The position numbers were made by a program, and so were the translations under genes. From the NCBI GenBank assembly GCA_028829895.1, contig CM054177.1:53565164-53629163 (forward strand): DNA of 64,000 bases, written 5' to 3'. The notes beneath the pieces were generated by a model. The model ran no database searches, had not been told where the DNA came from, and worked only from the letters and a program-made list of their open reading frames with translations. Of the stretch, positions 2,601 through 52,000 are shown one piece after another (within the stretch, counting starts at the first letter, position 1; the number at the start of each line of letters is the position of its first letter). Source of the DNA: Sinotaia quadrata. Taxonomy: Eukaryota > Mollusca > Gastropoda > Architaenioglossa > Viviparidae.

Positions 2601-2946
2601 GCTAGGTGACTGCATTTACTTAATATAAGAGTCTTTAACAATAACAATCATTCTTGACAACTGTCAAGCAGTATTTAAATGGTGCAGCATAATTAAAACA
2701 ACCCACATGTCAGAACTGCATGTAGGTGTTAGTCCCACATTCTCACATTTCTGAGAACTTCAATATCAGGTTGCAGTACTTAAAATATTTAAACAGCAAC
2801 AATTCCTTTAGCATATCCCACAACTTAGATTTGCAATTAAATATCTGCCCATATTCTTACCTTTATGAAAAATTTACCACCAGCATTAGTTAGGAAAGCA
2901 AAATATGTGTACATATTCAATTGGATTTAAACAATTTCATCTTTAC

Positions 2947-5900
2947 CTTATCTGTTCCTGATTCATGACTGCAACAGATGCTCCAGTTATATTTCTTCTG
3001 TCTTGTGACTTAGAATTTCTATCTGTACTTGAAACAGCAGAACTTCCTGAATCAGAAGACCTTCGACTTTTTGTTTTTGTACTGCGATCTCTAGAGCTTG
3101 ACTTGTTCTTTTTTTTGTGACTGTACTTCTTTTTGATTGGAGACCTGGACCTTGATCTGCTAGAGGCCTCATCATGTGTAGATGAGGATTTATTGTGTCT
3201 TCAACAATCATACAAAATTATTAAAATGTAGTAAACGGACTGGTAAACTCACTCTAAAATTTCTTTTAAAAGCTGCTTTGACAAAGAAAATATGTAACTT
3301 TAGCAGTATACATTCAAATACTGATTATAAATCTGTCAAATAATAAAATTAAATTTTTGCAAGATAGAATTGTCATGATCCTAATTAATTATATATGGGT
3401 CATTCTGTAGGCAAATGTACCATTTTGTGACAAAAATTTAAATAAAATAAAGTGGATTAAATCTAATTATTTTACAAAATTAAAATCTACAACTGGGCTT
3501 AATGCTTGCATAAAAATAGTAAACTAATTGGTAAGTTTATATTCTTGAATATAATTTACAGATTTTCGACCCATACTTGCTCAGGTTTAAAACAAACACA
3601 CAAGCTATATGAAACTTTAAATACAAAAATGTGTAAGCTATTTCCAATGTAAATCAATTTATTCAAAATATATTGAGATTATCAGAAGTCTTTGCTGTTT
3701 TCAAATGTTGGTGACTGAAAGTTTTGTTTTATTAACTGTGATCTTTGATGGAAACAGGAGTTATTTTTCTTATTTGGTACTTAAATTGATCACACTAAGA
3801 CAAAATGACATGAGAGTTGTCTTTTTGCAATATGGGCATTTAAAAAAAAAAATGTAAGCAGTCATCTGTGATATAATCATCATTATTTTATTCTTGTGAA
3901 TTTATTATTTTCTTCATCACATGCTAAAACAGAAATAAAGGCAAATTAGTTTACTTACAGTTGAATATTTTGAATTCAATGAATAATTTTTTAAAATTTT
4001 AGTGTATTTTTAATATTTTGATTAAACTGATTGCTTAAATAGCAAATGGAATATATGTATGACATGAAGGTGTTCAAAAACAATAAAAATTTAAGATATC
4101 ATATATTTTGAAACAAAATGTTACAAAAAAAATTGCATTTTAAAAATATTATTTCTTCAAAATTTTAACTGTTTCAAGACAAAAGGGATCCAGAATGTTG
4201 CTTTGATGTATCATCACTTCTAAGTAAACCCTGGTATGGTTTGTCAATTATTCATCATAATGAAAATTAAAGAAAATAGCAAAACTCAAGCATGTCACAA
4301 AAAGAGGCACCATGTTCAGTTCAAAACAAATTTGTTTTACAAATAATTACAAAATATATAAACACAAATTCATGCAAATATCTATCTCACTAATTTTGAA
4401 TATACAGAATAGAATTGATACTTTTAATTAATGCTTTATTTTTAAGACAATGACACCCTGTCATACACTTGTCCAGAGAATGACCCATATATATATATAT
4501 TAAAAACTCTTATCACTGCTTATGAAAATAGTAAAGCACGTGCACAGAGGGCATGGTGGGCTATAAACAGCTCTGAACTTGTATTTCACTCAGATTGCAT
4601 TTCTCCTTCTGAGCATTAGATTTTAGGCTGTAATAAATATTGGAATTTGGAATTTGGTAGGTTGCATTAAGCTGTGTTTAGCTCTTATTTTTGCGAAGCC
4701 TCCCCTAAAGAGATTAGACCTTAATTCAGTTTTGGTGAATACAAAGAGAAACTGACTGAAACAGCTAATGGAAAGCCAAATGTACTGTAAAATTAATTTA
4801 CTTTAAAGCAATATAATATATATTCTGAAAACAAATATTAAAATAATACTAAATGTATGTGCTCATTAACTCTAAACATTATGTCTTATGTCTGATGAAA
4901 AATCACACAAATCTCAACACAAAAAAAATAAAATTGAAACACACATTCATGATCTGATGATGATGTTTTTATATTAAATGGAATTTATAATAAATAATAT
5001 GGTAACAAGTAATAAATAAAAATTATAAGAAAAATACCTATCTAATGTCATAGTGGGTTTTTTTTAAAGTTGTACTATATTATAAATAAGGCACATATTT
5101 ATTCATAAGCATATTTATGCCCATAAATATGTATAACTGTAAACACTTTTTATACAAGAGAATAAACTAAAACCAAACGTACTATACAATTAATTTACTT
5201 TAAAGCAATATATTCTGAAAAAAAAATTTAAAATAATACAAATTGTATGTGCTCATTAACTCTAAACATTCTGTCTTATGTCTGATAGAAAAATCACACA
5301 AATCTCAAAACATACAAAAAAATTGAAACACACATTCATGATCATGTTTGTATATTAAATGGCATTTCTAATAAATATTATGGTAATAAGTAATAAACGT
5401 ACCTAATGACATGGTGTTTTTGTTAAAAAAAAAGATGTACTATATTATAAATAAGGCACATATTTATTCATAAGCATATTTACGCCCATAAGTATGTATA
5501 ACTGTAAACACTTTTTTTTTATATATTATATTGAATATAAGAAAAGAGAATAAACTAAAACCAAAACTACTTCAATTAAATTCATATTTACTGTAAAATT
5601 ATTCTCTACATATATAAATATCAAAGTCTGGAGCTTTAATTTAATATAACTTTAAAAACAATTTCAGCATTAAATTTTATTTTAATGGATTACCAAGGTT
5701 GCTTGATCAGGTAAATCAAAGGCAATTTTCAAAAATGTATATGTATTATATTATTACAATAAAAAGTATATATTATGAAATGACTGAGTAGTAATAAATG
5801 GTTTTATCAGCTGATATTAGAATTAAGTTTTGTATCATTTGTATGCTAATAGAGTATATATAATTATATTTGAATACATTGACTACAAGTACAACTATTT

Positions 5901-7089
5901 TCTGTTTTTAATGAAAAGGTGGCAATGTCAGAGCGACACATATAGTGATATACATGTCACCATTGAAATTCATAAGCCAAAAAGCAATTATGAGCTTCCT
6001 TCTTTATTTTCTTGGCCTAATATTTTATTATATTTATAATTATTAATATATATATATAATAAAATATTATTGTTAAACAGTTATTCATGAGTTCATTTCT
6101 TTATTTTCAGCCCTGACTAATAGTAATGCATTGTAATGTACTCTACTGTTAATTTGGCACAGCTGTGTGATAAACTTTCCAAAATTACTAAATTTTTATA
6201 TGTGAATCTTTTACAATGACATTTTTTTTAATTTTAATTAAAATGATTGTTTTTATTTGATTTATTTTAACTTTTTTTTTTTTTTTTGGGGGGGGGAACA
6301 GTTAGGCTTGTGGGCATCACTTCCAATAGTTTAAATATTGTGAAAGTAGTGTGGCTGAACTATTGATGCAAAGATTTAACTTACACTGTTACAGTTACTA
6401 ATTTAGTAATTATATAGGGGGTGAATAACTGGCTTGAATTTTAAACAGAGAGATTGCTTCTTCTGTAACTTGGCAGGTGCACATTCAAATTAAATTAAGT
6501 TCATTTACTGTTGCTACTTTCTTTTACCCTTCATAATTAAATAAATTAACCAAAACCCCAACAAAACAAAAGCCTGTATCTTCATGTATGTTCTTATAAT
6601 TTTTTTTTAATTGAATAAAATCTTACATCTAAATTTTCATTATTTATTTTTTTAAAATCAAATATAAAATTAAAGATTTGATTAGATTTACATAAACACT
6701 CAGAATTAGGGAGTTACAATATTTAAATAGTTTTAAACACTGTGGTTGAGCTAGTGTCTTTACTGATTAGATTTAGATGGGGCCGAGGTCATTCTTTCAC
6801 AATCACTGAATCAGTAAACGATTTGCTTTCAGGAGCCGCTTATTTTACTGCCATAAAGGTACATGTTAAAATCAACTGAAGTTTGTCTGTTTGCTTCTTT
6901 AAATTTACGTAAGCAAATTAACAAAACCAAATTTTCAAATAAAACTACACCCAACTTTGCTTGAATTTGTTGACAATGAAGCCTACATTGAGTTTCCACC
7001 AACCATACAACATACCGTTCTCTTGTCCTTTTTTTATGTTCTCTCAGTCTTGATCTATGTTTGTCTTTTTTCTTCTCCTTGTGGCCCAT
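2947..7089 (-). CDS. RS-rich nuclear protein, first two coding exons (partial gene)
   Basis: Two minus-strand exons join in frame. Exon 1 is 7089-7016 (ATG at 7089, 24 codons plus CG, donor GTATGT); exon 2 is 3198-2947 (A plus 83 codons plus AG, donor GTAAAG). Together they give about 108 residues. Residues 1-25 are almost all K, R, H and E (starting MGHKEKKKDKHRSR). Then comes a Ser/Arg tract with SRSRSRSP, further K/S/R text and an exon-2 end reading GASVAVMNQEQI. This composition is typical of SR-like splicing or RNA-processing proteins of nuclear speckles. I do not recognise which family; recalled SART1, ARL6IP4 and RSRC1 do not match well enough to name it. The next exon should lie below 2946 but was not found, and the retrotransposon fills 1-2065. 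The intron of about 3.8 kb holds the inverted-repeat element, the tandem duplication and AT-rich unique DNA described separately. Confidence 0.7.
3393..4490. mobile_element. Candidate 1.1-kb element with terminal inverted repeats
   Basis: The left end reads atatgggtcattctgtaggc (3393-3412). The reverse complement of 4471-4490 reads atatgggtcattctctggac, so 17 of 20 bases match in inverted orientation, with looser similarity continuing inward. Between the ends is AT-rich DNA with no coding capacity. The element sits in the RS-gene intron. It could be a non-autonomous DNA transposon; target duplications are obscured by flanking TA-rich sequence. Confidence 0.5.
3530..3690. repeat. Interspersed repeat copy 1 (second copy at 8675-8890)
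   Basis: The segment starting 'gtttatattcttgaat' and ending 'atattgagattatcagaa' recurs at 8675-8890 with about 80% similarity by eye, plus extra inserted bases including a (GTA)n stretch near 8722-8750. The shared core includes 'gaaactttaaat' and 'gtaagctattt'. This copy lies inside the 3393-4490 inverted-repeat element. Confidence 0.6.
4776..5564. repeat. Imperfect tandem duplication of about 395 bp
   Basis: Copy 1 (4776-5172) and copy 2 (5173-5564) share the same order of blocks: 'taatttactttaaagcaata', 'gtgctcattaactctaaaca', 'tctgatgaaaaatcacacaa', 'gcacatatttattcataagc', and an end near 'gagaataaactaaaacc'. They differ by scattered substitutions, A-run length and a short AT insertion at the end of copy 2. 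There is no coding capacity. Confidence 0.85.
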
Positions 7090-17894: not shown

Positions 17895-18245
17895 TTACCA
17901 AAACTAAAAATAATGTATGGTGAGATGATGGTTGTTTGGGGACAACATTTGTGGTGACTAAAAATAATGTATGGTTAGATGATGGTTGTTTGGGGACATT
18001 TGTGGTGACTAAAAATAATGTATGGTTAGATGGTTGTTTGGGGACAACATTTGTGGTGACTAAAAATAATGTATGGTTAGATGATGGTTGTTTGGGGACA
18101 ACATTTGTGGTGACTAAAAATAATGTATGGTTAGATGATGGTTGTTTGGGGGCAACATTTGTGGTGACTAAAAATAAAGTATGGTGAGACAGAGGTTATT
18201 AGAACATTTGTGGTGACTAAAAATAATGTATGGTGAGATGGTGGG
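17895..18245. repeat. Minisatellite, unit about 52 bp, left part of a split array
   Basis: About seven copies of 'tggtgactaaaaataatgta' plus 'tggttagatgatggttgttt' plus 'ggggacaacattt' run from 17895 to 18245. Some copies lack 3-6 bp. The array resumes at 19656 after a 1.4-kb insert. The open frame through it is a by-product of the repeat. Confidence 0.9.
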
Positions 18246-20399: not shown

Positions 20400-21110
20400 G
20401 GCGAACATGGAAACATTGAAGATATATTCAAACCTTCCCGTCAGTATTATACTATAAATATTTCTTTGTAGTTGAAACATTTGGAATATGGTAGCATTTA
20501 TACTTGGCAATGGAAACATTTGAGATAGGTAATATTTGAGGCTTCCAGTCCGTGTTACACTATAAATATGTTTTTGTGTTTGATAATGGAAACATTTGAG
20601 ATACGGTAATATTTGAGGCCCGCCAGAATTATACCATAAATATTTCTTTATGCTTAGTAATGGAAACATTTGGGACAGTAATATTTTAGTCTTCCATTCA
20701 GCATTTTACTCTTAAGCACTTCTTTGTTTGACAGTCTCAGCATTTGGGACATAGTCTTCCTTTCAGTATTACACACGTAATACTAATTTGTGCTCGACAA
20801 TCTCAACATTAAGGATTCGATGATACTGGAGTCCAAGACTAAGAGATATCTAGATAAATGTTGGAGTCTTTCTTTCAACATTACACTGTAAGTACTTCTT
20901 TGTGCTCAGCATGTAGGGTACAGTGATATTGGAGGTTTCTTTTCTGCATTACACACTTAATACTTCTTTGTGTTCGACATTTTTAACATTTGGGATACGG
21001 GAATCTTTAAGTACTTCTTTGTGTTCGACATTTTTAACATTTGGGATACGGGAATCTTTGAGTACTTCTTTGTGCTCGACAATCTCAGTATTTGGGACAC
21101 GGCAAGCTGG
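20400..21110. repeat. Degenerate tandem repeats, unit about 55-80 bp
   Basis: Repeating phrases are 'ggaaacatttgagata', 'tttgggatacgggaatcttt', 'agtacttctttgtgttcgac' and 'attacactataaatatt'. The best-preserved pair is at about 20955-21065 (55-bp unit). The open frames on both strands here follow the repeat period and are not supported as genes. Confidence 0.75.
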
Positions 21111-21289
21111 TTCACTCTTGTTTTGACTTTGCTGATAAGCCGATCGTGTTGCAAGCTGTCTATTCGATAAGGAATTTTAAAATAATATTTTTATTATTAA
21201 GAGTAGCCTGTCACTGTTCGAACTGCCTTATACTTTTGCACAAAAAAATTATATAGGCAAAGTGTTCTGATGCCTGCACTTGTCATCTG

Positions 21290-21410
21290 CTGCGCGACAT
21301 TTTGCCGAAAGTTCCGTTTATAAAGTACGTCTGCGTACGCCGGCCTGAGACCCAGAATAAACTTTTCCGTCGGCCTCAGCTAGCAGTAAACAAACAAAAT
21401 CTCCAACAGA
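21290..21410 (+). promoter_or_regulatory. Candidate promoter and first (5' UTR) exon of PIGY/SLC35A4
   Basis: This short block stands out by its CpG content (gcgcgac, gtacgtctgcgtacgccgg, ttccgtcggcc) within AT-rich DNA. It ends with a strong donor, AACAGA|GTAAGT (exon end 21410). It precedes the PIGY/SLC35A4 exon by 1.1 kb on the same strand. No ATG extends in frame to PIGY from here, so if it is exon 1 it is non-coding. This is inferred from composition and the donor only. Confidence 0.45.
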
Positions 21411-22544
21411 GTAAGTTTTGTTTTAGTTTTATATACGTTTGTGTCGCCTCGTAGGCTTACGGCGCACTTCGTAGTTGGTATTGTTTCACTTCACAAGACG
21501 CTGCTTAGCCAATTGTACAAACCATGCGATAGAAAACTCTCACTTCGTTTGTTCGCGTTGGATGATTTTTTTTTTCTCCAATGGTGTTCGCCGATAACTT
21601 TTTAGCTCTGTAGAAACCCGTTGCAGCATTTATTCATTCAGGCATTGTATTTGTAATGAATTTGATCAAGCCACGCCTAAACTGCCTGGTATGGCTTCTA
21701 TCAACGTGCATGTAATTATCAGCCCGAACTGATCGGTTCGCTAAAAGAATATAAAACCCACACAAGGACTGATTTATTAATTATTAGCTTTAGTATATCA
21801 AGATTTATAATAATTTATCAAGGTTTTTTGTAATTATACTGCCATCTCTAAATATGATTAGGGCCTAAGTTCATGGTCAGTTACTTTCAGCTAATAATTT
21901 ACAATGAAACTCACTGCTTAACTCAGACTGTCAAAAAGATGATAATTATTAAATAGCTTCACTTATAGTGACTACATATGACAGACTTTTTGTTGGTATA
22001 GATAGGTTGCAAATATTGAATTTGAAACATCTATATTCATCTGAAATAATGTGTAAATTCTTGAATTAAATGCATCAATCACATTCAAAAGTTACTTTGA
22101 TTAGGTCTAACTTAACAATATTAAGAACTATTTCTTACATGAAGAACTTGCATTTGTAAAGTTTGTGTGTGAGAGAGAAAGAGCAGAATCATATAAACAT
22201 CCATAAATACATAATTAATGTCTTAATATATCAAACTTTTATTTGCTTTTAATATTATTCAATATTGAATTTATTAATGAACATGGATGCTTTCATGATA
22301 ATGATTTTTACAATTTGTGACTACTAACATGTATTTACTATTTACTGTATTGACAATATAAGTTATAACAGAGAACACACAAATATACATTATACATATG
22401 CACGAATGCTCATAAACACTTAGACATTCACAAGAAAAGTATTTGTGGAATATGACATTGAAAAATTTCATTTTTCTTCTTAAGAAAATAATTTTAACAT
22501 AATCTGTGACACTGAAATATTTACCTTTTTATTTATTTTTTTAG

Positions 22545-22679
22545 GAGAATAATTACACAAAAAGCATTGATACAGCATCATCAACCTATTACCTTCTGCT
22601 GCTTCCATCCACAGTTATTGTTTTGGTCATCACCCTTTTTCTAAACTGGCTCGGGTTGAAATTCTTCCGACACAATTAG
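22545..22679 (+). CDS. PIGY: PIGY, GPI-GlcNAc transferase subunit Y, C-terminal exon (partial)
   Basis: The exon opens after a polypyrimidine tract and TTAG and reads 44 codons to TAG at 22677. The product starts ENNYTKSIDTASS and continues with a hydrophobic segment (YYLLLLPSTVIVLVITLFL). It ends NWLGLKFFRHN. The known human PIGY, 71 residues with two membrane segments, ends WMGIKLFRHN and has the same spacing between the STAS-like stretch, the LLLP turn and the stop, so this is the second half of the family. PIGY is a small ER membrane subunit of the PIGA-containing complex that makes GlcNAc-PI, the first step of GPI-anchor synthesis. The first transmembrane helix and the start codon must lie on an upstream exon, which I could not find between 19.7 and 22.5 kb. 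The same exon continues into SLC35A4 26 bases later. Confidence 0.8.
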   Translation, partial: ENNYTKSIDTASSTYYLLLLPSTVIVLVITLFLNWLGLKFFRHN

Positions 22680-22705
22680 ATTGTGAGAAAGATGAAGAAC
22701 TGCCT

Positions 22706-25345
22706 ATGTCTGTTGATATTTCCTGTACCATGAACAAATTAAATTCGTATGCAGACAATCAAAGCATCTGTAACTATAATAATGATGGCAGTTCTGCATC
22801 TGACACAGGACAAATGGGTGAACATGTAAAGGTAAGTTCAACTCTCATTTGTAAATCCATGTTTAGAATACATCTGTCATTTTATGGCTTAATATTATTT
22901 TTGTTTATTGTTTCTTACATATTGATTCAAACGCCTAACAAATATTTTTTGTAATAGGTGATTTACTGTTTAACTTTGAATAAATTATTTATTTATTTTT
23001 TTTATTAAAAACACAAGTACCTACATATTTGTGATCATAGGCAACATTTTTTGAACTGGTGGGAGCATTTATATTTAGTGGTATTTATTCTTTTCTTTTG
23101 TTACTGTTAAAAACTATACAAAAGAACATTCAAAAAAAGTAGGAGAATAATATTTTCCACAAGAGGCCATTATGATTAGTCTAAAATCATTTTGATGAGG
23201 CTCAGCAGCTACCAACAGAAATATAAGTAGGTTTAGTGGGAATTGTTCCTCATTTTCTTTTTATTCATAGAAGTTAGGATTAGAAATTTTCATCTGTTAA
23301 TATGAATTTTTTAACTAAAACCACTCTGACTATGAGCTAAAATGTCAATACTTTTTTAGTTATGTATTATGATGCATTTGTGACAAGTTTGCTCTAGGTG
23401 ATGAGCAAGTGGAGATTTGCAGCAGCTTTACCTGTTTGCTGGCCATAAAAAAAAAAGAAAATCATTTTAAAATTAAAATACATTTGAAAAACAAATTGCA
23501 TGGAAACTCTTAATAATTAATATATTGAAAACAAACAATGAAATCTGTTCACTAACGACTAATATAATCTTCCTTGTCCCTTCTTTTTTTTTTTTTAAAA
23601 CTCAGTAAGTTACTTGTGTATATACAAATATTGATCTTTCATATAAGCAGATAAGTGATTTTTCTGATAAAAAATCATGTGAAATGAAATGGGCTGAATG
23701 TAGGTGTGAGTCAGCATCTAATCTATGTAGAGATAAACACAAGAAAGTATACACCAGAGCTGTTAGTCAATGGGGTTTTTCTTCCTTAAATCTATAAATA
23801 AAATACTCTCTAATGCCATGTTCTGTACTTAGTTTTATTAGAAGTGTGTATAAAATTTATTCAAGCTCCATCTGATGTTCTAAAACTGAAACAAATAACA
23901 AAAATTGTGTAGACACAAAAACGTGTAATTTTACAATAAAATAACAACCACTGTTTCCAAGTTAAAATCTCTCATCCTACCAGTGTTTTATAGATACAAC
24001 AGATACACCTATCCAAATTTCAGTCTGACAGAATGGCACAAGAAGGCTTTGATCAACATTCAGTCATGTTATACACATTAGAGGTAGATTATACATTGTA
24101 TTAACACATACATATTCCTAGTGGGAGGCATTTAATCTTTTCCCCATCAGCATGGAAATACAACTGAATATTAGAACATTGGCTTTGGTACTAAGACAGT
24201 ACAGCAGACATTCGCTAACTTATGCCTAGATGAGTGGCACCAACTACTAGCACATAGACAATATGACAAACATTTCTCACTCTTGATGACTGTACCAATG
24301 ATGTACACTTTGGCCTTAAAAATGTAAACAGCCACTGAATCATACCAGAATTCCTCCACAGCTACCAAATGATATTCATCACAGAGTTGTCCCCAGAGTC
24401 TCCAGACAGTATTCCAATGAGAATTTGAAAACTAGTTACTGATTAGCAGAGATCTGTTCGACTTTTAGAATCTGACAAAAGTAATTGTAAAAATCGGGGT
24501 TTAAATACACTTTCATTAATGTGGGTGTTATTGATTTTATGACAATGAGCATGGGAATGCCCTGGTGAACATGGCTTCAAACTCACCAGGCAACACCTCA
24601 AGCCACTACAATAGAATTGTCCAGTGTGCTGGCCCTGGTCATTCTTAAATGGGCAACTTTTTTTAGCACTGCAACAAAAGGCGTAGACTGAAAACTGATT
24701 TCACCATGCTTCTCCTAGTATGCCCTTGTTACCTGGCATAATCCTTATATGCGGTCACCATGACAAAATAGCATTTACTAAATACTAGTTATTTCCACAA
24801 ATCTACCTCAGCAAACCTTCTACCACTACCATGGCAACAGTATAAAAAATATCTCTCTGAATTGGCAGTGACTTCATGCTCACAGTCACACACAGCCTCC
24901 AAACAAGGTTCAAATAAATGTTACAATAGAAGAATTAAGCTGTCTCATTGCTGGCATCATCAGCTTGCTAAAAGTTCATGCACAAATAAACAAGCATTTT
25001 CAAATAATAAGTAACTAGAGAAAGTAGAGTATTAATAAAATATTAATTAATCAATGTAATTAGAACAATAGGATTTTGTATCTTTACAATATTATTTTTA
25101 GACTTCATACATCTTGATATTGTCCATAATTGTAATGTAGTATTGTACTTGTACTGTAATTTTTATTGATTTATGTTGGTGAAACATCACCTGGGGCACA
25201 AATATAAGCCACAAAGACAAATAAATCAAATTGTGGAGTGTCAAAACAGAAATTTATATAACATTGGCATAAGTACATATAAACACTAGGCATATTATTA
25301 TCACCCCTATTTTTATTCACATCACAAGCTCACCTTAGTAAATTA

Positions 25346-25399
<54 letters not shown>

Positions 25400-28300
25400 T
25401 GTTGCATTCACTATTCAGATAAGTACTGTTAGTTTTATATTAAATATCTTTCTAGTAAATGAAATGTTAATCAGTTTATATTGTAGTGAATGTTGTAAAT
25501 TTATAGACTAATTCATTTAATATTAATATTGAATTCTGGTACTGGATCATGGTTTGTTAATCCTATCAAGAACTCAATCATTAATTCCCAATATTATTTT
25601 GCTAGCATGTTTATGTCTGTCAAGCCAGTTTGGCTTTAAAGGAGTAGATGATGATGGTGAGGAAGATATGTAATGATGATGAATATTTGCAGAGAGAATA
25701 GATTAAAACAATAAAAGAGAATACTGAGTAGTTTGTAACATCATGATGGACTGGAAAGTAGTAACTAACAATGATCTAGTGAGAGGATACTGCTCTGAGT
25801 GTGAATAGAGATAAACTGTTAAAGAAGCCATGAAGAAATAAAAAGATGAAAATTTGGCATATGACCTACCTTTGCCTTCTAAAATTTGTAATAGTACTTT
25901 ATCAAAGGAAGTTCCATTTTTTCTCATACCTATTTCCATATTTATTTATCTGTATGTCTCCCTGTCTGTCTATCTGTAACTGTTTATGTGTGCTCTGTCT
26001 TGAAATAAAAGTTGATGCACACGTAATGGAGTATTGTACTTTATATACACTTAACGTTATTACATATATAATAAACTAATTTATGGTATCTCTAAGCTGG
26101 GGAAATTTATACTTCCATTTTCTTTCTCAACATATAACTGAAAATCATGGATACCTATATATTTCTTTCAGAAAAGTCACCTTTATTATTATGTAATAAT
26201 TTTATTTATTTATTTTATTTTTCAAATAATGGGAAATTGAACAACTCCTCTAAAATTACTTTAATAAATATTTTTATAGATGATTACATTTTTACAGTTC
26301 AATTTTAGACATCATTTTGTATTGAAAGGTGTTCTAGGAGTAAATACTTAGAGTCTTAAATTCAATATAATTTATCCTGTAACAAAATAATAAATAAACA
26401 CTACTGTACTTTTTTTAATGTCATGGACTTAATCTCCATACAGCCCAAAAATTAATTCTCATTGTTCAATTAAGTGTTAAGATTGACAATCTGAGCAAGT
26501 TTTCACACTGAACACTAAACAAAATTTCTATATGTGTGGTGATTTTGACCTTATCATATAAACTAAACATCAAAGCCTCATGGGTCATCCACTTTCTCTT
26601 TGTCTAATATCTGTCTGTTAGAGATGATTATCCCTAGATTACCTTTCTGTTTCAACTTGTGCTAAGTTTTAAAAAATCCTACCATCTCACTATGCACTAA
26701 TGAATTCATTGTTTGTTTTGAATCAGAATGCCCTTCCACTGTGGAGAGATAAAGGGGCAGTCAGAATGGGAAAACTACCATGCCTGTGGTGGCTGGCTCT
26801 GGCAGCTATGTAAGCATGAAGTAAACAAACTGCTGGCCTGCACAAGGGTTCTGCTTATGTCAAACAATGTCTTAGGGTTCTTGGTCATTGTACTTTTGTC
26901 AAACAATGTCTTAGGGTTCTTGGTCATTGTACTTATGTCAAACAGTGTCTGACATATTCTTGGACATGTTGTATTATTTTGTCATCAGGAGATGTGGATA
27001 CTAGTGTATGTAGTACCATCATTCATTAATAAAGATGTAATTAATAGCAAATACATTTATGTGAGACTAAAAGGGGGAGGGGGAATACCATTAGGGCAGT
27101 TACATAATGACATTACTGCATGGTTATACGGTAATACTTTACAGCTGTTTGTAGCTGTAACATTTGGAGAATAGCATAGATAGCAAGAAAGTAATGTGTG
27201 TAATATAGTAACATTACTTCATGGGTACTACTTCTAGTAACTCAGTAATATCTTGCAATTTGTGTTTTGAAGCTATGGTATTTGACTAATAGAGATGTTA
27301 AGATTTGCATCCATCACCTTTCTCATCCCTAGTTGTCTAAGAACAGTCATAGCAAATGAGAATATAAATTCTTTATTAAAATGATACACTTTCTCTTTAT
27401 TTGACTGATTTATTTAGAATAATACACACTTTTTTTTATTAGAATAGCTCTCACAATTTCTCTATTTAGAAGGCACACACATGCACCATTTCTTCATTCG
27501 AGTAATACATCTTTTTAGAATGAAACTTGCCACTTCTTTATTAAAATAATACTCCATTTATAAAAAATTGAAATGATACAGATTGTTTCTTAAAATGATA
27601 CATACATCCAGATTCTGAGATAAAATGACACAGTCCATTTTAGACTGATACACACTATGTCTTTATTTGAATACATAAAATAACCATTTTTTATTAGAAT
27701 ATTATGCACCTTTCATTATTAGAATAATATTTTTAATATATATCCATTTCTTTATTAGAATGACAACACACCATTGTTTATTAGAAAAGTACACACCATT
27801 TAAAATAACAATCACAATTTATTATTAAACTAGAGTATTTGGCCATCATATCACGTGACGGGTGTAAAATTAAAATGAATGAATTGTTTATTGGAAAATT
27901 GCCAGTGAAAATTTGAGCATCGTTTAGCAAATGACCTTGACTGTCTTTTTTTTTTTTTAATTACTTTCATGTTGTCTCTTTTTCATGAATGTAGCAGAGC
28001 AACATAAAGCAGACCATGTGGAAACTTCCTTCCTTCCCATTCCCTCCAGCCTTTCCATGAACGCAACAATGCAACATAAAGCTGACCATATGGGGGGGGG
28101 GGGGGAACCTCACGTGCTCAAAGCCCTCTCATGACTGTGCAGTCACTTACAATTTAAACTATACCTATCAGCTATGCATTTATGCAAAAATAATCCATCA
28201 ATGAAAGGAGGAAAACAATCTACCTCATTCACATTCATAATTGCCTAATTCAGTAATTGCATAAAAATATACTTATATTCTATAGGGCAAAAAGAAATTT

Positions 28301-31300: not shown

Positions 31301-34300
31301 TGTTGAACTTGTCATCACTTCATTTCCTAATGTAATTTTAGTTAGGGCAACATCATATTCTTCATGGAAATTAATATCTCAAAAACTGGTTCTTGACATT
31401 TTATTTTTTATGCAATTTTAGCTAGAGCAGTATTATCCCTTGGATTAAGATATGTTACAGAGAATAAAATAGCTATAAAATTTATTGAAGCATGAAAGAT
31501 TAAATAAGTTACCATTATGTGTGAATGATTCTCACATGTAAAGTCAAATAATTCTTTTGTCATGTACTTGTCACATAATGGCCTTATGTAGCCCACAATT
31601 TTATTGAAGCATGAAAGATTAAATAAGTTACCATTATGTGTGAATGATTCTCACATGTAAAGTCAAATAATTCTTTTGTCATGTACTTGTCACATAATGG
31701 CCTTATGTAGCCCACACTTTTATTGAAGCATGAAAGATTAAATAAGTTACCATTATGTGTGAATGATTCTCACATGTAAAGTCAAATAATGTCATGCACT
31801 TGTCACATAATGGCCTTATGTAGCCCACACTCAGTGACTCACTCTCCTCTAAAAATAGACTACATTCAAACCTAGCTCTAGGACAGTTGACCCTTACGCC
31901 TGGGCTAGAGAGTGGCTTAATTAGTAACCCACTTTAAATGGACCATTCAGAGTGCAACTGAACTATGCATGACAAACATACAAGAAACCTACTGTTATTC
32001 AGCTAACCATGCAAATTGACTGTTGAGCAACATATGCTTTGGTCTCCCAACCTTAATTAGCTACAATTATAGTTTTATACTGCATAGCCGCTTCCACTCT
32101 TATTGCTGGTTACTGATGCAGCAGGAACCCATTCTCTGTGTATATTACTGCCGAAACTATATGGTTTTGCTTGTATAACTGAATATTATACCCATGTTTA
32201 TCTTTAACCTTAACTATCTTTTCAAATTGTTATACATTCTACTTAGGATATTAGACTATATGATGATTACGTACATAAGCGTGTTCTTTCAGAGAATGCT
32301 TCAAGTGGACAAATTCTTTAGCCCATATGCTTTTACTGGCAGATCAGCTCTTTATTTCCAACATTGATTTTTGATGAGCACTGAGCCATGAAGCAATGCC
32401 AGAGTGGAGCAACTCACTGGCCAGAGACAACAGTTCAAGAGACCATGTGCGCCTCTGCTGCAGCATCACTAGGATCCTGGACGACAACATCAGGCATATA
32501 CTGAGATATGTGGGCCACAAAATCAACAGCCATACAGCAGCTTCTCTCATAGCTTCATTTATAATTTCGCCCACATAAATAACCAAAACAGTGTCCTAGG
32601 GTTCAAGCAAACTATCTCTTAAGACATGACATGGTCCTGATTATGAACACTATACATTTATAAACTCTAATTATAACCATCTTAAGACATGACATTGTCC
32701 TGATTATGAACACTATACATTTATAAACTCTTAATTATAACCATCGAACCATTCACTATGTTACCACCTTTCCATCTTATTTTATTTCTCTTTAAATATA
32801 TTTTAGTATTGATACTTAAACCACATGTGTTGGCATAATACATGTTATATATCATTGTGTATCACCTGTATTTAATTAATATACCTGTCTGTACGTATCA
32901 GGAGGCTCAGAGCTATATTCTCAACTTTACTCTTCTTTCCTACATTATCTGTATTAGCTCTTTCCAATATGTGTAGCCAGCCAGAAGGTGTGTTTTGGGG
33001 GATTAGCCTAAGGTTATGGGCAGCCTGGGATGGTGGAGAATTAACATCTTACCCATCTCCCAGCAAAATGTCACAGTACTGCAGTGGTTTGTATTCCTTA
33101 TCCCAGCATAGCACTTGTATGAATTAATCTAATTTGTCCGCTTATTTAGGAGAAATTTTTTTAATGTAAATTTGCTACACAGTTTTATTTTATTTATTTT
33201 TTACTTTTTGAAAGATGTTCTGTTAATTTATTGTTTTTTTACAATTTTGATAGTCTTCTGTTTCTCTCCTTGTATAGGGTGTTAGTATATGGCTCATATG
33301 GGGTTCTGATGAACTTGAGTAAAGTGGATGGCCAAATTCCATTCAGCTCTATGTCTATGGTTCTTCTCATAGAGGCAATTAAGGTAATTTTCATAGATAT
33401 CTTCCTCTTTTTAAAAAATTTGTGTACATAAACAGCATTTTTTAATACAATTTATGTTCTATCTGGAACTATAATTTTATATGTGACGGCAAAAATGATA
33501 GTTTGATTAATTGTCTTAAACCGATTCGTCTATCTTTCTTACTTCTGCACTTCTCATTAATTTGCCTAACAGTCTGTCTTTCTGCCTTCTGTACCTCTCA
33601 GTTAACTTTTATTATTATCATTAAAACTTAAAATGTATTTGGACATAAGCTATTCAGTTATTAGTTTAATATTTATTATATTTATGTAGTATTTTAATAT
33701 TTTTTATTTCTATTGCAGTTTCTTTTTTCTATTGTACTGTATGTGTCAGAAGTTGGCGAAAATGACTTCTCCTGGCCAAGTATACGACTTGCATTGCCAT
33801 TTTCTGTACCAGCTATTCTGTATAGCATCAACAATAATCTGTCAGTCATTTTGCAGTCATACATGGATCCAGCCTCTTACCAGGTGTGGTTTTTTTTTTA
33901 ATAATTTGTTTGTTGGATTGTGAATGCCTATGTACACTACAACACTCATTCATTTAGCTAAAAAAATAAACACCTGGTAAAACTAATCATTAATTCCTCT
34001 ATAGCCAAATGACGCCCAGGTATGATTGTAGTAGCAACAAGTGAAGTTGACATTGAATCCATTACTCCAATCTCTTTGCCTAAGTGTTGATAGTTTGGAT
34101 CACCTCTGGATGATTTTACCCATCTGTCACTGACGTGAAGATATGAAGTCAGGCAGATAACAAATTTCTTGCAAAGATCAATTTTATGCCGACATTGCCA
34201 ATATCTGCTGCCCAGTAGTGATCAATCTCTGCTGAGACAGGTCCATCAAAATATTGTATACAATATATGTTTTCCTCTCTGCTAGCATTGTCTGCTCAAA

Positions 34301-37300
34301 ATTGGTTCATGTATGGAGTATAAATGGGGTTGACATTCAAGACTGAAAGAGAATAAGTATGACTGTGGGTGGAATTGCTGGAAATACGTTTTTTTTGGTT
34401 TCTAGTAAATTCTGTCATCACAAACGCTTTCATGCTTTATGACCAGACTTAAACTTCAGTCCACTGACAAACATTTTTTTTTCATTGATTTTCATCATAA
34501 GCTTGCCACACAACTCATTGTTGGAATCATTGCCAGTAAACGACAACATTTTGAAGTTGTGTGAGCACTGTCTTGTGATGATGAGAATCTGTGAGGTCAT
34601 CTCAGCATCAAGATGTCCAAGAGAAATTGCTGCTGTTGTCATCTCAAGCAATAAGCCCAGAAAAATACAATTTTTGGTTGTGGCCAGAGTAATATATATT
34701 TATTTAAGGACTGTCAAGAACAAACCACCAATAAACTGTAAAATGTCAGTACATTAACATATATCAGTCCCACATACCCACCCCAAAAGTAAAGGCATTT
34801 TGTTTTGTTTATTTGTAAGAATTTGTTTGTTTGTTTTACTACATTCACAAGATTATAATAACTATATTTACAGCAGCATACTTAGTTAATGCAAAAACAA
34901 CAAATACAAACATTTGTTTATGTATAGTTTAGGCAGAAATTAAGTGTCAATATGCATTTTTAAAAATATCCTCACCCCTCTAGAGTGTGTTGTATTTGCA
35001 ATTATGTTTGTTTTTGAGTGTGCAAAGATAATTATTAATTAGTTCAGTATCAAAGTTTTGGGTGATTGATGTGAAATCAGGTGATTACACAATTTTCCAA
35101 AAATCTTTTATTTAATTTATATTTTTAAAATATATTTTTATTCTTTATCATCAGTTTTTAGATTAAAAAATATATATTGCTGGTTTTCCAACAAATCCAC
35201 TGAACCAGGATACTTTTTATATAGATTGTTGAATGATAAAATCAGTTTTGAGTAACTTTTGTTACTGTTATAAATTGATTACAATTTGTTTTGTAGGTGA
35301 TATAACAGTTCAAGCATAACTCATTTTTGCTCTCACTTCATAAAAACCCCAACATTTGTAGGGTTTCAGATCTAAGCATATTGACTGGTCAATACACAGC
35401 TGCTTTGATGTAAATGAGCATTATTGAGAAAGCTGCTCTATAAATAATAGCCATCAAGTGAAGAGTTGTAAAGAATTTTGAAAATGTTTATAAGTCTACC
35501 TTTGAGAAAGTTAATGATTTATTGGAAAATATCTTCACATATAAGTACTAATTTTTCAGACACTCAATCATATAGTGCTTCACAAATATAACACGTCAAA
35601 TAGGATTTGATCTTAAGCATAGGCAGACTTATTCCTTTATATTTTTAACAATGGTGAATTAATTTTGTTACTACAGTGGGGCCTCAGTTTATGATGCCAA
35701 CAATTAAGCATTTAACATGAGCAGTTTTATGTGATATTTCCAGTTGATCATTTTCTTGGAATGCATTTCCATTTTTAAATAACACCATCCCCTATATCCC
35801 TTTTTAATAAAGAAAATAATTTCATTGGGTTTTTCTTGACAGATTCTTTCAAATTTGAAAATAGTGACCACTGCTGTTTTGTATAAACTAATCTTGAAAA
35901 GGTAATGGATGTTTGTTTTTAGTGTGAGTGAGTAATTCATTTAGTACAGAATCTTTGCAATAAACTAATCTTGAAAAAAGTAATAGATGTTTGCTTTTAT
36001 GGATTAAGATAATCTCTTATTTGCTTTTATGGATTAAGATAATATCTTATTTGCTTTATGGATTAAGATAATATCTTATTTGCTTTATGGATTAAGATAA
36101 TATCTTATTTGCTTTATGGATTAAGATAATATCTTATTTGCTTTCTTCCTATATAGCCATGAAATGTGTATGATTGAAATGTTTATCTCCTAATGCTTCT
36201 TTTATTATTTTATTTTTAAACTGATTAGTGCTATGTAATTTATATATTTGCAATGTTTTTTAAAAAGTGCCCTGTATTAATGTATTGATCGGTGTATGGT
36301 TTCAACATTACCAACATTTTTGTAACAGATCTCTGAGCATGCAGCAATGGATATCAGTTGGGTTGCTGACTTTGGCAGGAATCTGTGATAGGTGAGAAAA
36401 ATAATTTGTTTATAAACAAATAATAAATCAATTAAAAGAGAACAATTTAAATTATTTTTCATTTAATTTTAGTTGTGATGTAAATTGCACACTCTTGGTA
36501 TCAGCATCCATTTTTTTATAGTTATTATGATAGATTAACTTTTGTTATTTTGTGTGTTGCAGTTATTTTTATGGAATATAATTTCAAGTAGTCTTCTGTT
36601 TACAGAAACATAACTTGAAAACTATATAAATAAAATAATAAAATTAAAAGCAATATACTGTAAATACATTGTTAAGAAAATCTCTGCAGTGTAAAATATT
36701 AATATATTTATAAAGTTCTAATGTTATTGACCTACCATCTTTACTAATAAAAAGGAACACTGAAAACATTTATAATAATTTTTTTTTTACTTCATAAACT
36801 TTCATTTTAATTTTTTTTAATGCTTATTCTATGCCTTTCAAATGTACAGATGGCCAAATCTATGGCACATTTTATTTATTTCTTCTACTGCTTTCCTTGT
36901 AATCTGTACAGACTGAATTTGTAAGTGTAAACATGACTTAACAATCCTTTGTCTGTGAAATTTATCACTGATTTACACTATGCCACCCATTCACACATGC
37001 TCTCTGTTGGTTCTTTGGAGGCTATTCTCAACATCTCTGCAGAATAGATTGTCAGTAGTACTTGTCAAGGAAAACATTTTCATACACCTCTCTCCAATTT
37101 TTAATGCTATTTATGTGTGTGTGTGATTTACAATTTTATTAACTTATAAAGTTTAAAAATAAGACAGAATATTGCTAATCTATGCATGTTGTTTGTAAAT
37201 ATCAGCATAAATTCCGATTCATGCAGAGAAAACATACAATTTTGTTTTTTTATTGAGAAAGTAAGTGAAGCAGTGATTCACCATAATAAGTAAGCAAAGG

Positions 37301-40300
37301 AGTGATTGATCATAAGTGAATGATCAATCTTGAATATGTGAAGCAGTGGTCTTTCAAAAGTAAGTGAAGCCATGATTGAACCATAAGAAATTTTAGTGAT
37401 TAATTTATCTCATGACAATTAAATTTCAACTAATTTTCTTATTTATTTACTGAAGATGCCGATATTTAGTTGCACCGGAAGATTTTAATTGTTACTGCCA
37501 AAATGGCCGATTCTAAGATGAAAGGCTATAAACTGGTTAATGGTTGCATGACCATTTTGGTTTTAAAGTAGACTGTTATATTTTATAAGTTGAGTATTCA
37601 CTTTTATTATGATTAGTGAACTAAGGCAAGTCAAACTTGTTGACTCGAACTGTTAAACTCTAACTACTTATTTTATACTTTACTGATTTACTTGATGTTT
37701 TTGCCTATAGATTAAAAAATAGAATTCTATGAGATTACTGATTTGTTACATTTGTAGCTGAAATCTTGTATTTTCATGCATTTCCATAACTATGTTCAGT
37801 TTATTTGATTGCTATTTTCTTTAAATTAAATTTATATTAAATCATTTCTATCTTCCTATGTCATTTCTTCTGCATGTGACATCATCGTGTCAGGTCTTAA
37901 GGGGTGGGGGGCAGAGCCAGGAAATAGTTGTATTCAGGGACGACACTATTGGAAGATACTTCTCCCTAAGGCTAATAAGCTAACCCAGGTATTATTGATA
38001 ATGTCATATTTATTATTATAATTAGTATCCATATCATAATTCCTACATAATAGAAGGCTCTGACTGGGCTAGCATACCAGCAGAGTACATAAGTAAAATA
38101 AATCAGTGATTAAGTAAGTGAAGCAATGATTGATCATAAGTGAAGCAGTGAATGATCATAAGTAAATGAATTAGTGATTGATCATATTAAATAAATGAAG
38201 CAGTGATTGATCATAAGTAAGTGAACCAGTGATTGATCATAACTTTGTTATCACTTTCTCTGTCCTGCTGTTGTGCTAGCTATGGCAGCATAGGTCAGAA
38301 GTCCGAATCTCCAAGAGAACTACGGCTGCATGTAACGGTGGAGGGTCTGGTCATTATGTTTATTTATTGTACAATATCTGCGCTGGCTGGAGTCTACACA
38401 GAATACATTTTAAAGAAAGATTTCCTCACATCACTGCATTTGCAAAATATACTGTTATATGTGTTTTGCATTTTTATAAATTTGGGAAGCTGGTTTATGA
38501 GTCAATTTTACTACAGTGATAGTGAAGGTGAGTAGAATTTTTATACTTTTTCAAATTTATTATTTTCTCTAATTTTGAAATAAAATGTAACTTACATTTT
38601 TCCAATTTAATTAATCAGTATTACTTCTAGCACAGAAAATATACATTCTGGTTTAGTAGAGATGTCATGTTTTGCCATGAACTGCTTGTTAGTTTGGGGA
38701 TCATTTGGATACTTGCCAGTAAAAACAAAACCATCAGCAGAAACTTCTATCTGCCAGCTTGCCAGCAGCATTAGTGGCAGTGCTAGTAAATATTGCAGAT
38801 CTCTGCTGTGAGAAGAATATTTTTTTTAATTTTGTTTCTGTTTTAGTGCTAGTAAATACTGCAAAGCTCTGCTGTGAGAAGAATAATTATATATTTCGTT
38901 TCTGTTTTACAGTGCTAGTAAATATTGCAAAGCTTTGAACTGACAAGAATAATTATTTATTTTGTTGATGTTTTAGTCCTAGCACAAGCGGAATAATTAA
39001 TGCATGTTCCATAATTACCCTAACTATCATTTTCATGTTTTTGGTAATAAGTCATTTTAATTTCTTTTAAAAAATTTTGGGACATGCTTTTAGACGAATT
39101 TATTATACAAAATTACTAAAATCAACAAGCAAAACTTTGTGTTTTTAAATGAATTTGTTTAAATAGTTGACATGTATGATGCCTACACCACCTTAGTTAT
39201 TGGCTATGACTATTATTATTATTTAATCATCAATAACTAATTACAAGTGATGATAATCGTAATTTATGTTATTAATAATTCACCAGAAGACACCACTCGT
39301 CTCTCTCACTTGGCAGATATGCGGTTGCTGTAAATGTTTCCTCTCTTCTCTCTTCCACAACATTAAAGATAACATTTACCATCACACAATATTTCCACAT
39401 ATGAAAAACTTCTTACCAAAGGGGAAGACAAATCCATCTTTTAATCTATGTTTAGTGAGCCCCCATCTATCTGTCTCTCCAACATATGGTCATCAGTATA
39501 TGTAAGAAGGTCAATAAATTTATTAAATCAACAATCAAATATACAACATATGAATATAATCAAAAGAGTGTTGACATTTACATCACTTCACAATATTGTT
39601 CAATCAATGCTGGACTGTCATTTAGTTTATCCTAGCAAGACATAAGTAGTCAGTTAACATATTTATATATATAATCAAATTCGTGGATGTCATATCATCA
39701 CAGTTTTAGAGAAAATTAAAGTCAATGATGGCAGCTGTTGCCAGCACATGTTTACAATCCCTTAGCCTTCAATTCTGCCACAGTTCCGTTTCTGCCAATG
39801 ATATTTTGCCCCATATGTTAAAACTAGTATTCTATTTGAACTTGACATTATGATTAGTAAGGCTTTATTTTGGTTTTTCTGTTTCAGGCACATTTAATTT
39901 TTTCAAAGGATTCTCATTTTACACTTGGCTGATTATTTTTACACAGGTAAGTGTACTCTTTCTGTACTTGGTTGATTATTTTTACACAGATAAGTGTATT
40001 CTTTCTATACTTATCTGATTATTTGTATACAGGCAATATACTCTTTCAGTTCTTAGATGATTATTTGTATACAGATAGGTGTACTCTTTCTGTACTTGGT
40101 TGTTCATGCACGATATAACATTTTTACAGATTTACTTTTCATTAACTTATGTCTTATAAAATATGTGATTGTGTAACTCTATTGACTCACATTTAATCAG
40201 ATTGACATCACTTAACACTGGCAAACTAAATCAGATATTGAAATAAAAATATTTTCTATGTCATTGTTTTCTGATATTTATTCATATCCTTCAAATAAAA

Positions 40301-40520
40301 TCATTGAAGAAAATTTTATTTATATTTTTAGGCTTTTAATGGCCTGGCAATGTCTGTTGTCATGAAACATGGTAACAACCTGGTGCGACTGTTTGTCATC
40401 TCCTGTGCCATGATTGTCAGCACAGCATTATCAGTTATCGTTCTCGGAATATCACTCAATGTTCTTTTCTTCATTGCTCTTTTCCTTGTTGTTTTTGCCA
40501 TTTATTTGTATTATCAGTGA
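22706..40520 (+). CDS. SLC35A4: SLC35A4-type nucleotide-sugar transporter, nine coding exons
   Basis: Exons join in frame with GT-AG borders: 22706-22831, 26727-26809, 33278-33383, 33719-33883, 35843-35901, 36329-36391, 38280-38527, 39888-39946 and 40332-40520 (TGA). They give 365 residues; human SLC35A4 has 324. A polar, Asn/Ser-rich N-terminus (1-55) leads into about ten membrane helices. Family landmarks are YGSYGVLMNLSKVDGQIPF (74-92), NNNL (143-146), YMDPASYQ (153-160), NLKIVTTAVLY (164-174), GVYTEYILKK (238-247), LQNILLY and MKHG (314-317). The NLKI-TTA and KHG motifs are those of the SLC35A nucleotide-sugar transporters of the Golgi. Human SLC35A4 has been linked to CDP-ribitol transport, but substrate here is not deducible. 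The start begins MSVD, like human MSVE, but its context (cctATGt) is weak; Met9 has a better one. Introns carry the minisatellites listed separately. OSTF1 lies convergently downstream. Confidence 0.88.
25353..25396. repeat. (AC)22 microsatellite
   Basis: AC dinucleotides in SLC35A4 intron 1. The rest of this intron is AT-rich unique DNA, except 24170-24900, which is less AT-rich and may be an old unidentified insertion. Confidence 0.9.
26850..26965. repeat. Minisatellite, about 2.5 copies of 41 bp
   Basis: 'gtcaaacaatgtcttagggt' plus 'tcttggtcattgtactt' occurs twice and partly a third time, starting 40 bp downstream of the SLC35A4 exon 2 donor. Confidence 0.85.
27360..27835. repeat. Degenerate tandem repeat of ~28 bp (TTTATTAGAATGATACAC-like)
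   Basis: Many variants of 'ctttattagaat' plus 'gatacacacca' follow each other in SLC35A4 intron 2. Related copies recur at about 28980-29190. Between the two stretches are a G-run (28092-28104), GA-rich patches and unique DNA. Confidence 0.65.
29590..29745. repeat. Minisatellite, about 5 copies of 28-32 bp
   Basis: 'tagataattcttgatttaac' plus 'attctg' repeats with variation within SLC35A4 intron 2. Confidence 0.75.
30840..31015. repeat. Three diverged copies of a ~58-bp unit
   Basis: 'ttattgtactaaaagtgttt' and related 'tgtattagtggtgtttt' and 'gttgtattaaaagtgtttt', each near 'tatgtaa', recur in SLC35A4 intron 2. Confidence 0.65.
31481..31830. repeat. Three tandem copies of a 119-bp unit
   Basis: Copies start at 31481, 31600 and 31719 with 'tttattgaagcatgaaagat' and end with 'ggccttatgtagcccaca'. 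The first two are nearly identical and the third lacks about 8 bp (ttctttt region). The high identity points to recent expansion. It lies in SLC35A4 intron 2. Confidence 0.95.
32340..32580. other. Less AT-rich intronic block of unknown origin
   Basis: About 240 bp in SLC35A4 intron 2 approaches 45-50% GC and is open in one frame on each strand (80 and 60 codons). Neither product resembles a family I know and no splice or start context supports it. It may be an old transposable-element piece. Confidence 0.3.
32618..32744. repeat. 63-bp tandem duplication
   Basis: 'cttaagacatgacat' followed by 'gtcctgattatgaacactat' and 'acatttataaactct' occurs twice, with a one-base length difference and one substitution. 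Confidence 0.95.
35950..36144. repeat. Copy of SLC35A4 exon 5 end, then ~28-bp minisatellite
   Basis: 'taaactaatcttgaaaa' at about 35960-35977 repeats the last bases of exon 5 (about 35884-35900), followed in both places by a GTAAT and 'gatgttt'. From 35991 the unit 'ttgctttatggattaagata' plus 'atatctta' repeats five times up to 36144. Confidence 0.85.
37258..37390. repeat. Degenerate repeats 'gaagcagtgattgatcataag', block 1
   Basis: Several copies of 'aagtgaagcagtgattga' and 'tcataagtgaa' variants lie in SLC35A4 intron 6. A second block with the same unit is at 38098-38242. Confidence 0.75.
38098..38242. repeat. Same repeat family, block 2, next to SLC35A4 exon 7
   Basis: About five copies of a 26-30 bp unit with 'gcagtgattgatcataagta' end about 37 bp before the exon 7 acceptor (exon start 38280). 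Confidence 0.8.
38765..38990. repeat. Three copies of a ~65-bp unit
   Basis: 'tgctagtaaatattgcaaag' plus 'ctctgctgtgagaagaata' plus a T-rich 'tttgtttctgttttag' stretch repeats three times in SLC35A4 intron 7. Confidence 0.8.
39922..40105. repeat. 43-bp minisatellite that starts in SLC35A4 exon 8
   Basis: Unit 1 covers the last 25 exon bases (acttggctgattatttttac through the CAG at 39946), the donor gtaagt and 'gtactctttctg'. Three further units follow, with matching CAG ends at 39989, 40032 and 40074, then a partial unit. In each downstream unit the donor GT is changed: at, gc and at respectively. Confidence 0.9.
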
Positions 40521-49005: not shown

Positions 49006-52000
49006 TTAATCTGAAGCTTCTTCGTCATCTTCACCATAATCATTGGAATACCGAGAAGCTCTAGATATACCAGCTGAAACAGTACAACTTTCAAAGTTAG
49101 TCTGATAGTAGCCAGTAAAATTAAACAGAAACAAAAAAACCCATAAAGATTATATAATATAAATTAGGTTTAACATTTAATAGCTGGTCTTGTAATATGC
49201 ACAATCAACCAGTTGGATATATTTTTATCAGTGTTGAATTCTTTTCATTAAATTTCACATGACCATTACTACAATACATACAATCACATAAACATTACAA
49301 TATATTTAATCATACAAATATTATATTACGTAGGACATGCTATCATAAAACATTACTGTATAATTATATAAACATTACAATATATAAAATCACATAATCA
49401 TTATAAAATACAACCATATCTATATTGCCAAACATATAATCACATAAACATTACAATATACTCAAATCAAATAAACATTACAATATATTCATTCACATAA
49501 ATATTATAATACATGCAATCATAAAACATTACAATACAGTACATACAATCATTTATTCTCTTAATAAGCAGAATATAGTGTATTTGTTGTCAACATTCTC
49601 AATTCATGGTGTAAAAGAAATTGAAATCAGAAAATTATTTGTATTAAATTACTTTTTTGAAAATATTTTTTCAGCTGTAAAAAGCGATTTATGTCAGTAT
49701 ACTGAAATGCTATGATACTGCATTTAAATATTCTTTTTATGTAATGATTTATAAACTCTGGGCAAATGCAAGTGAATTATATGTCTGCAAAAAACATTAG
49801 ATCCAGTAATTTGTATCCAAGCCCCTACCATGGTTTTATTGTAAAGAAGGTATACATCATTTAAATTTGACAGTGATTTTCTTTTTTGTTTTAAACATTT
49901 TTAAAATCACTGTCAAATTTAAAAGATGTATATCTTCTTTACACTTTTTAAACTGAAAATTGGGTAAATTACTGACTTTTCTCTTAAGTAGTATATACAT
50001 GGTATATACATGGCTAAATTAAAAGTTTTTTTTTTAAATCAATATCCTTGAAAATATTTAGTTAGAGCAGGTATGCAAAATGCAGAATACTGACCTGCTT
50101 CTCTCAGCAAGGCAGCCACTTCTGGGTCTTTTGTCAAATCCACAGGCAACTTTCCTTCATTGTTCTTCAAATCCACATGAGCACCTTCAAATTCCAAAAC
50201 ATGTCATGTTAAATAAAAGATATTAAACCATTTAAAAATGTCTAGTATTGATAAAGCTTAAATTTTATTTTTAATATAAAAGTGGGAAGGAGAAGTTATA
50301 AAAACATATAATACAAAAGAATCATCGATGGCATCTATAATTATGTGGCAACAGTGCATGTTTGAAGAGTGTATACATTAAACATATTAAAGATATCTGC
50401 AATGATATTGAAAATCATGGAAAACACAGTTAAAACAGAAATAGAAGTGCACACTTTAAACATTAAAACCAGTCATAAAAAGAATGTATAAATTAAGCAT
50501 TAAAGCCATACATCCATTCTTACAAGAGTATACAAGCTATCCATTAAAGCCAAACACACAAATCAAAATAAACAGTGTATAAAATACTTTTATTTAAAAG
50601 TGCCCCAATTATGCATTAAGGCCATTTGAGAAAAAAGATTATAGAAATTATGGTGCACATTAAAGCCACACAAACATTTTAAGATATCGTAAAATTACAT
50701 ATTAAAGCCACAAATAAAAAATATTTATCCTAAAATGGTGCATAAATTACAGATTACAGTCACACATACAAAGTTTAGGGGGAAAAGCACATAAATTACA
50801 ATTAAAGTGAAATATATAAAACTAAAAAGAGTGCACACATTAAACACTTAAAACCACTCTTACAAATCCTACAAAGTTATACAAATTCTAAAATATAATA
50901 CACAAATAATATCCTAAAGCCGTAAATACGTAGCTGCACATATAAATCCTAAAATCTGCTAAAATCACACACAGAAATCCTAAAAGTGGTGCACAAATTA
51001 TGCATTAAACTGAATAAAGCATACATTGTACAAGGATACATTAATACATATTATAGTTTATGTTACTTATACATTAAAAAACCACACCTTTATCCAGCAA
51101 AAGCTTGACAGCTGCTGCATGTCCTTTCCATGATGCAGAATGAAGTGGTGTATCCCCGAGCTTATTCTGTTTGCAACCAGAAATAGATATGTTAATATAA
51201 CATTCACAACTCAGTTGTTTATACTATGTTTATGTTGCCAACCAGAAATTAATGTAGCCATTCACAACTCAATTGTTTTTACCATGTTTATGTTGCCAAC
51301 CAAAAATAGATATGTTAATATATCCATTCACAATTTAGTTGTTTTACCATGTTTATGTTGCCAACAGAAATAGATACATCAATATAACCATTTACTCAAT
51401 TGATTTTCCTAAGTTTATGATGCAAAACACAATTTTGTTACATCTTCCCCAAACTGCTACAATATAATTCTGTTTGGGTGATGCATGACTATTATAATGT
51501 GATTCTGTTTGGGTGTAGGATGGATGCTACAACATACTCTTTCTGAGTGTAAGATGACTGTTCCAATATAATTCTGTTTTGGTATAGGATGACTACTACA
51601 ATATAATTGTTTGACAGTAGGATGACTACTACAATATAATTCTGATTGTAGGATGACTACTACAATATAATTCTGATTGTAGGATGACTACTACAATATA
51701 ATTCTGATTGTAGGATGATTACTACAATATAATTCTGATTGTAGGATGACTACTACAATATAATTCTGATTGTAGGATGATTACTACAATATAATTCTGA
51801 TTGTAGGATGATTACTACAATATAATTCTGATTGTAGGATGATTACTACAATATAATTCTGATTGTAGGATGACTACTACAATATAATTCTGATTGTAGG
51901 ATGACTACTACAATATAATTCTGATTGTAGGATGATTACTACAATATAATTCTGCTTGGGTGATGGATGACTGCTACTAGTTATCTTATTCATTATATGT

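Follow-up and report, generated by a model that had tools for sequence, protein, structure and literature searches.

The stretch of DNA analysed here (the window) comprises 64,000 nucleotides of contig CM054177.1 of Sinotaia quadrata, within an assembly of 984 Mb in 26 contigs, and contains on its plus strand a single exon in which the C-terminal coding part of PIGY is followed by an open frame predicted to continue into SLC35A4 (Table 1). The exon is bordered by an AG at 22543-22544 and a GT at 22832-22833, and its splice signals are among the best in the window, placing fourth and second, respectively, when all 3434 AG and all 3352 GT sites of the window are ranked with a generic score. The preliminary description of the locus had claimed clear AG and GT borders for this exon, a PIGY C-terminus ending in FFRHN-stop at 22679, an ATG at 22706 separated from that stop by 26 bases, and an in-phase joining of the ATG frame to eight further SLC35A4 exons, all of which were borne out. 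The frame from ATG 22706 exits the shared exon at phase 0 and yields, with eight more exons, a model of nine coding exons in phase (1098 nt including the stop codon, 365 amino acids) in which all introns are GT-AG. The two frames are non-overlapping and belong to the same strand and exon chain, their conservation being judged by compatibility only. Between the PIGY stop and the donor of the shared exon, the SLC35A4 frame has no stop across all 50 codons, an openness that occurred in 1.6% of 20,000 simulated sequences (P = 0.016).

Table 1. Features of the PIGY-SLC35A4 locus, in window coordinates.
Feature	Position	Strand	Evidence or remark
CpG peak, proposed shared promoter, with donor-like site at 21410 (putative end of a 5' leader exon)	21101..21700	+	24 CpG per 400 bases; promoter role putative
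Shared PIGY/SLC35A4 exon	22545..22831	+	acceptor rank 4/3434, donor rank 2/3352
Last 44 codons of PIGY and TAG stop	22545..22679	+	PF15159, 43.9 bits; sole PF15159 match in the assembly
Base that follows an acceptor-like AG within PIGY; splicing to it would remove part of PIGY from the mRNA	22615	+	score 5.5
13-codon frame after PIGY, out of the SLC35A4 frame, its TGA overlapping ATG 22730	22692..22733	+	reading frame
SLC35A4 coding exon 1, ATG 22706 to donor (in-frame ATGs 22706, 22730, 22814)	22706..22831	+	open frame
AATAAA in the intron after the shared exon, possible end of a PIGY-only mRNA	22979..22984	+	one of 168 on the plus strand
SLC35A4 coding exon 2, in-frame ATG 26766	26727..26809	+	likeness to SLC35A4 and in-phase model
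SLC35A4 coding exon 3	33278..33383	+	in-phase model
SLC35A4 coding exon 4	33719..33883	+	in-phase model
SLC35A4 coding exon 5	35843..35901	+	in-phase model
SLC35A4 coding exon 6, 63 bases; matching 21 residues missing in Babylonia isoform X2	36329..36391	+	in-phase model
SLC35A4 coding exon 7	38280..38527	+	in-phase model
SLC35A4 coding exon 8	39888..39946	+	in-phase model
SLC35A4 coding exon 9, with stop	40332..40520	+	in-phase model

Both gene names given in the preliminary description were right. By its family, PIGY would act in the first enzyme of GPI synthesis, and the gene is required for protein anchoring at the cell surface. The first 135 bases of the shared exon match the Pfam PIG-Y family with 43.9 bits against a cut-off of 25, covering profile positions 34-69 of 69, and a scan of the whole assembly with this profile (PF15159) returned this single match. 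The PIGY frame is shut on its 5' side by the TAG of the acceptor itself (22542-22544), which leaves the N-terminal part outside the shared exon. A complete PIGY was taken to carry an N-terminal membrane segment and to have about 71 residues in all; its N-terminus must come from a separate upstream exon. We looked for this exon by donor phase, hydropathy, likeness to the human sequence, a motif, and a profile built on 65 N-termini among the best 120 of 188 PIGY matches, but it was not found within the 22.5 kb upstream in the window, nor in the 10 kb beyond the window, where profiles only were applied; the top N-terminal profile score was 6.7 bits and nothing stood out. The absence of this exon from the stretches searched is the main weakness of the case for a dicistron. 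The 44-residue piece, when used alone in a protein search, gave no candidate homologue, and none of the solved structures matched it in sequence at E up to 1. The alignment-based search returned 188 proteins, the best 120 of which were vertebrate-named or nameless, with no mollusc-named PIGY among these 120.

For the downstream gene, the nucleotide-sugar transporter family PF04142 spans residues 64-363 of the 365-residue model with 156.5 bits, and functional names among the best 120 of 166 protein matches were SLC35A4, S35A4 or transporter A4. The nearest homologues among the matches listed were those of the snails Batillaria (69% identity), Littorina (62%) and Nucella (61%). As a rough comparison across different databases, SLC35A4 of the frog Aquarana scored 259 bits, and solved CMP-sialic acid transporters scored 113-153. 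The best 120 of the 166 matches were scanned, 39 were read, and 28 were placed with the window protein in a tree of 29 rows, which held no SLC35A1, A2, A3 or A5 rows; the assignment to SLC35A4 and not to another SLC35A member is by best hits. In this tree the window protein fell in a seven-member caenogastropod clade (support 100/99), together with proteins of Littorina, Nucella, Babylonia and Batillaria and with proteins P0002 and P0004; its position inside the clade was poorly resolved (92/75). By this placement the source is most likely a caenogastropod, in agreement with the mollusc origin implied in the preliminary description. Within the gene model, the splice signals of exon 2 are of medium strength (rank 326 for the acceptor and 112 for the donor), and this exon was chosen among 37 candidates by its likeness to SLC35A4. 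SLC35A4-named proteins among the matches listed came from molluscs, a brachiopod, a nemertean, an annelid, hemichordates, echinoderms and rotifers. Given this spread, SLC35A4 appears to be older than the lancelet date suggested in PMC13303939, with the reservation that many of the names are automatic.

Four in-frame ATG codons are candidates for the start of SLC35A4 translation. Three of them lie in the shared exon, at 22706, 22730 and 22814 (distances of 26, 50 and 134 bases from the PIGY stop), and the fourth, at 26766, lies in the next exon. The preliminary description had taken ATG 22706, which begins MSVD, as the start. Its frame is indeed open, in phase 0, and 26 bases past the stop, but it is neither the first ATG after PIGY nor the best-supported start. 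The first ATG is at 22692, 12 bases past the stop, and opens the 13-codon frame of Table 1. ATG 26766 has an A at -3 and a G at +4, and the annotated start of the Batillaria protein aligns there, one residue off, so that SLC35A4 need not start within the shared exon. A likeness of MSVD to the human start MSVE was considered and dropped, because none of the six other clade members has a clear equivalent of residues 1-36.

Comparison with related snails bears on the age of the arrangement. The annotated SLC35A4 proteins of Nucella lapillus (P0005) and Babylonia areolata (P0009) begin with MVPAAASIN and MVPSATSFN, and in each of them 15 of 33 positions match what the window would encode across PIGY when read one frame off. 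The protein models were back-translated with codons chosen freely, read one base over, and scored against the PIGY of the window. A hidden PIGY reading, stop included, was compatible at 28 of 32 positions in Nucella and 29 of 32 in Babylonia, with scores of 151 and 154, respectively. Shuffled sequences averaged 25 and 30 and reached maxima of 78 and 79, none of 1000 shuffles attaining the observed score for either species, and the best segment among the other matches listed (first 80 positions of each) scored 100. A scan with 11-residue segments singled out the same two proteins, and only these, among the best 120 of the 166 matches. The overlap in these two species is compatibility of protein models, not observed DNA. 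By implication, the PIGY exon is joined to SLC35A4 in both gene models, with the PIGY frame and its stop kept, and the arrangement is consequently likely to be older than the split between the window lineage and neogastropods. In Nucella and Babylonia the next in-frame ATG lies 71 bases past the PIGY stop. Note also that the Babylonia model (isoform X2) lacks the 21 residues that match the sixth coding exon of the window, and the borders of that exon therefore appear common to both. The other clade proteins (Batillaria P0001, P0002, Littorina P0003 and P0004) have models that start further downstream and lack the overlap, and they speak neither for nor against it. As a separate observation, the Littorina saxatilis model starts with Met-Asn, which falls in the alignment where PIGY has its stop. 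An ATG followed by an asparagine codon must read TGA one frame over, and the PIGY stop may be kept in this species, with the start codon overlapping it as ATGA; with two aligned residues, this is only a lead.

CpG counts provide a further line of evidence. The highest CpG peak of the window lies just upstream of the shared exon, with 24 CpG in 400 bases where the window averages 2.2, and the next separate peak, of 15, is found at 62.7 kb. Sampled segments at 22.4-40.8 kb, across SLC35A4, contained 0-4 CpG, and none of the segments sampled between the two frames or across SLC35A4 revealed a peak. A single promoter serving both frames would be the simplest reading. A scan with a bacterial promoter model found nothing in the window, such a model not being applicable to animal DNA.

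Taken together, the end of PIGY and the SLC35A4 frame in one exon suggest that both proteins are probably made from one dicistronic mRNA, and a conserved dicistronic transcription unit is our best reading of the locus. The gene models of two species likewise suggest that both frames stand on one mature mRNA. The preliminary description had proposed that PIGY became the upstream cistron of a unit co-transcribed with SLC35A4. Co-transcription survives as the best reading, because the shared exon appears to recur in the two neogastropods. Transcription would start from the CpG peak, an upstream exon would supply the PIGY N-terminus, PIGY would be the upstream cistron, and ribosomes would come to SLC35A4 either by scanning on once the short PIGY frame has been translated or by leaky scanning past the PIGY start. 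From the PIGY stop to the end of the shared exon there are 152 bases, and eight exon junctions lie downstream of this stop. A stop codon so placed can expose an mRNA to nonsense-mediated decay, and the dicistronic mRNA would be vulnerable to it unless the SLC35A4 frame is translated as well.

The locus could also be read as a pair of genes overlapping in a single exon, with PIGY mRNAs being polyadenylated in the next intron and SLC35A4 mRNAs starting or being spliced without PIGY, with joint molecules as minor read-through taken up by gene predictors. Such an arrangement could make use of the AATAAA at 22979, of the acceptor-like site at 22615, and of ATG 26766, where the annotated Batillaria start aligns and positions -3 and +4 are A and G. 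However, AATAAA is common (168 on the plus strand of the window), the CpG counts between the frames and across SLC35A4 show no peak, the SLC35A4 frame runs unbroken across the shared exon (P = 0.016), and the overlap appears in two other species. We consider this explanation unlikely, if the most serious of the alternatives. Even less probable is that the PIGY piece is a relic in the SLC35A4 leader from which PIGY is no longer made. The missing N-terminal exon, sought over 22.5 kb in the window and 10 kb beyond, would fit such decay, but the frame and stop appear to be kept, with no frame breaks, in two neogastropods, and no other copy of PIGY was seen in the assembly. Finally, a trans-spliced operon, in which a leader RNA joined between the frames would produce two monocistronic mRNAs, might be imagined from frames only 26 bases apart, but it is very improbable, given that the stretch 22680-22831 has no convincing acceptor (best score 0.6 vs 8.4 for that of the exon itself) and that leader trans-splicing is not known from molluscs.

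The production of two proteins from one shared mRNA is rare in animals. In the known PYURF-PIGY transcript, PIGY is the downstream frame. The dicistron that we favor would resemble that unit in carrying PIGY on one transcript with an unrelated protein and would differ from it in order, PIGY standing downstream of PYURF there and, by prediction, upstream of SLC35A4 here. PMC13303939 counts PYURF-PIGY among human bicistronic transcripts, places a bicistronic transcript of STREMI (SLC35A4-MP) and SLC35A4 in jawed vertebrates, proposes retroposition for the intronless SLC35A4 near STREMI, and has SLC35A4 already specified in lancelets. In both systems SLC35A4 lies, here by prediction, downstream of a short frame for a small membrane protein, whereas the upstream partner is STREMI in one and PIGY in the other, and SLC35A4 is intronless there and has nine coding exons here. 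Searches of the window with human sequences gave no significant match for STREMI (best E 0.89) and none for PYURF (best E 3.5), for which short exons could be missed. The preliminary description knew of no account of the PIGY-SLC35A4 pairing, and we likewise found no earlier report in the open-licence literature.

If the dicistronic reading is correct, the locus would represent a conserved animal dicistron linking two secretory-pathway proteins, with SLC35A4 standing downstream of a short coding frame in a second case, separate from that of vertebrates, and it would indicate that such pairs can form without retroposition. More tentatively, and by analogy, it is conceivable that caenogastropods built their own SLC35A4 dicistron, in which translation of SLC35A4 is governed by PIGY as a coding frame upstream of it, in the manner of STREMI in jawed vertebrates. 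SLC35A4 would then have acquired an upstream frame for a small membrane protein on two or more occasions, in this case without retroposition, and a single mRNA would link the synthesis of GPI anchors to sugar import into the Golgi. This raises the question of whether the stress-responsive translation of SLC35A4 depends on an upstream coding frame, whatever that frame encodes. There is also a warning for annotation, since the SLC35A4 N-termini deposited for two snails (P0005 and P0009) are apparently artefacts of annotation in which PIGY was translated in the wrong frame.

Scans of the window for tRNAs and Rfam families were empty. On the minus strand, at about 2946-7089 and head to head with PIGY-SLC35A4, lie coding pieces rich in Arg-Ser and in Lys, with a likely start MGHKEKKKDKHRSR near 7089; the piece at 2946-3200 had no Pfam match at E up to 0.01. 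Tandem repeats are numerous in the window (74 rows, e.g., 51541-51958, 17903-18244 and 58229-58787) and include long arrays of 31-, 54- and 56-base units.
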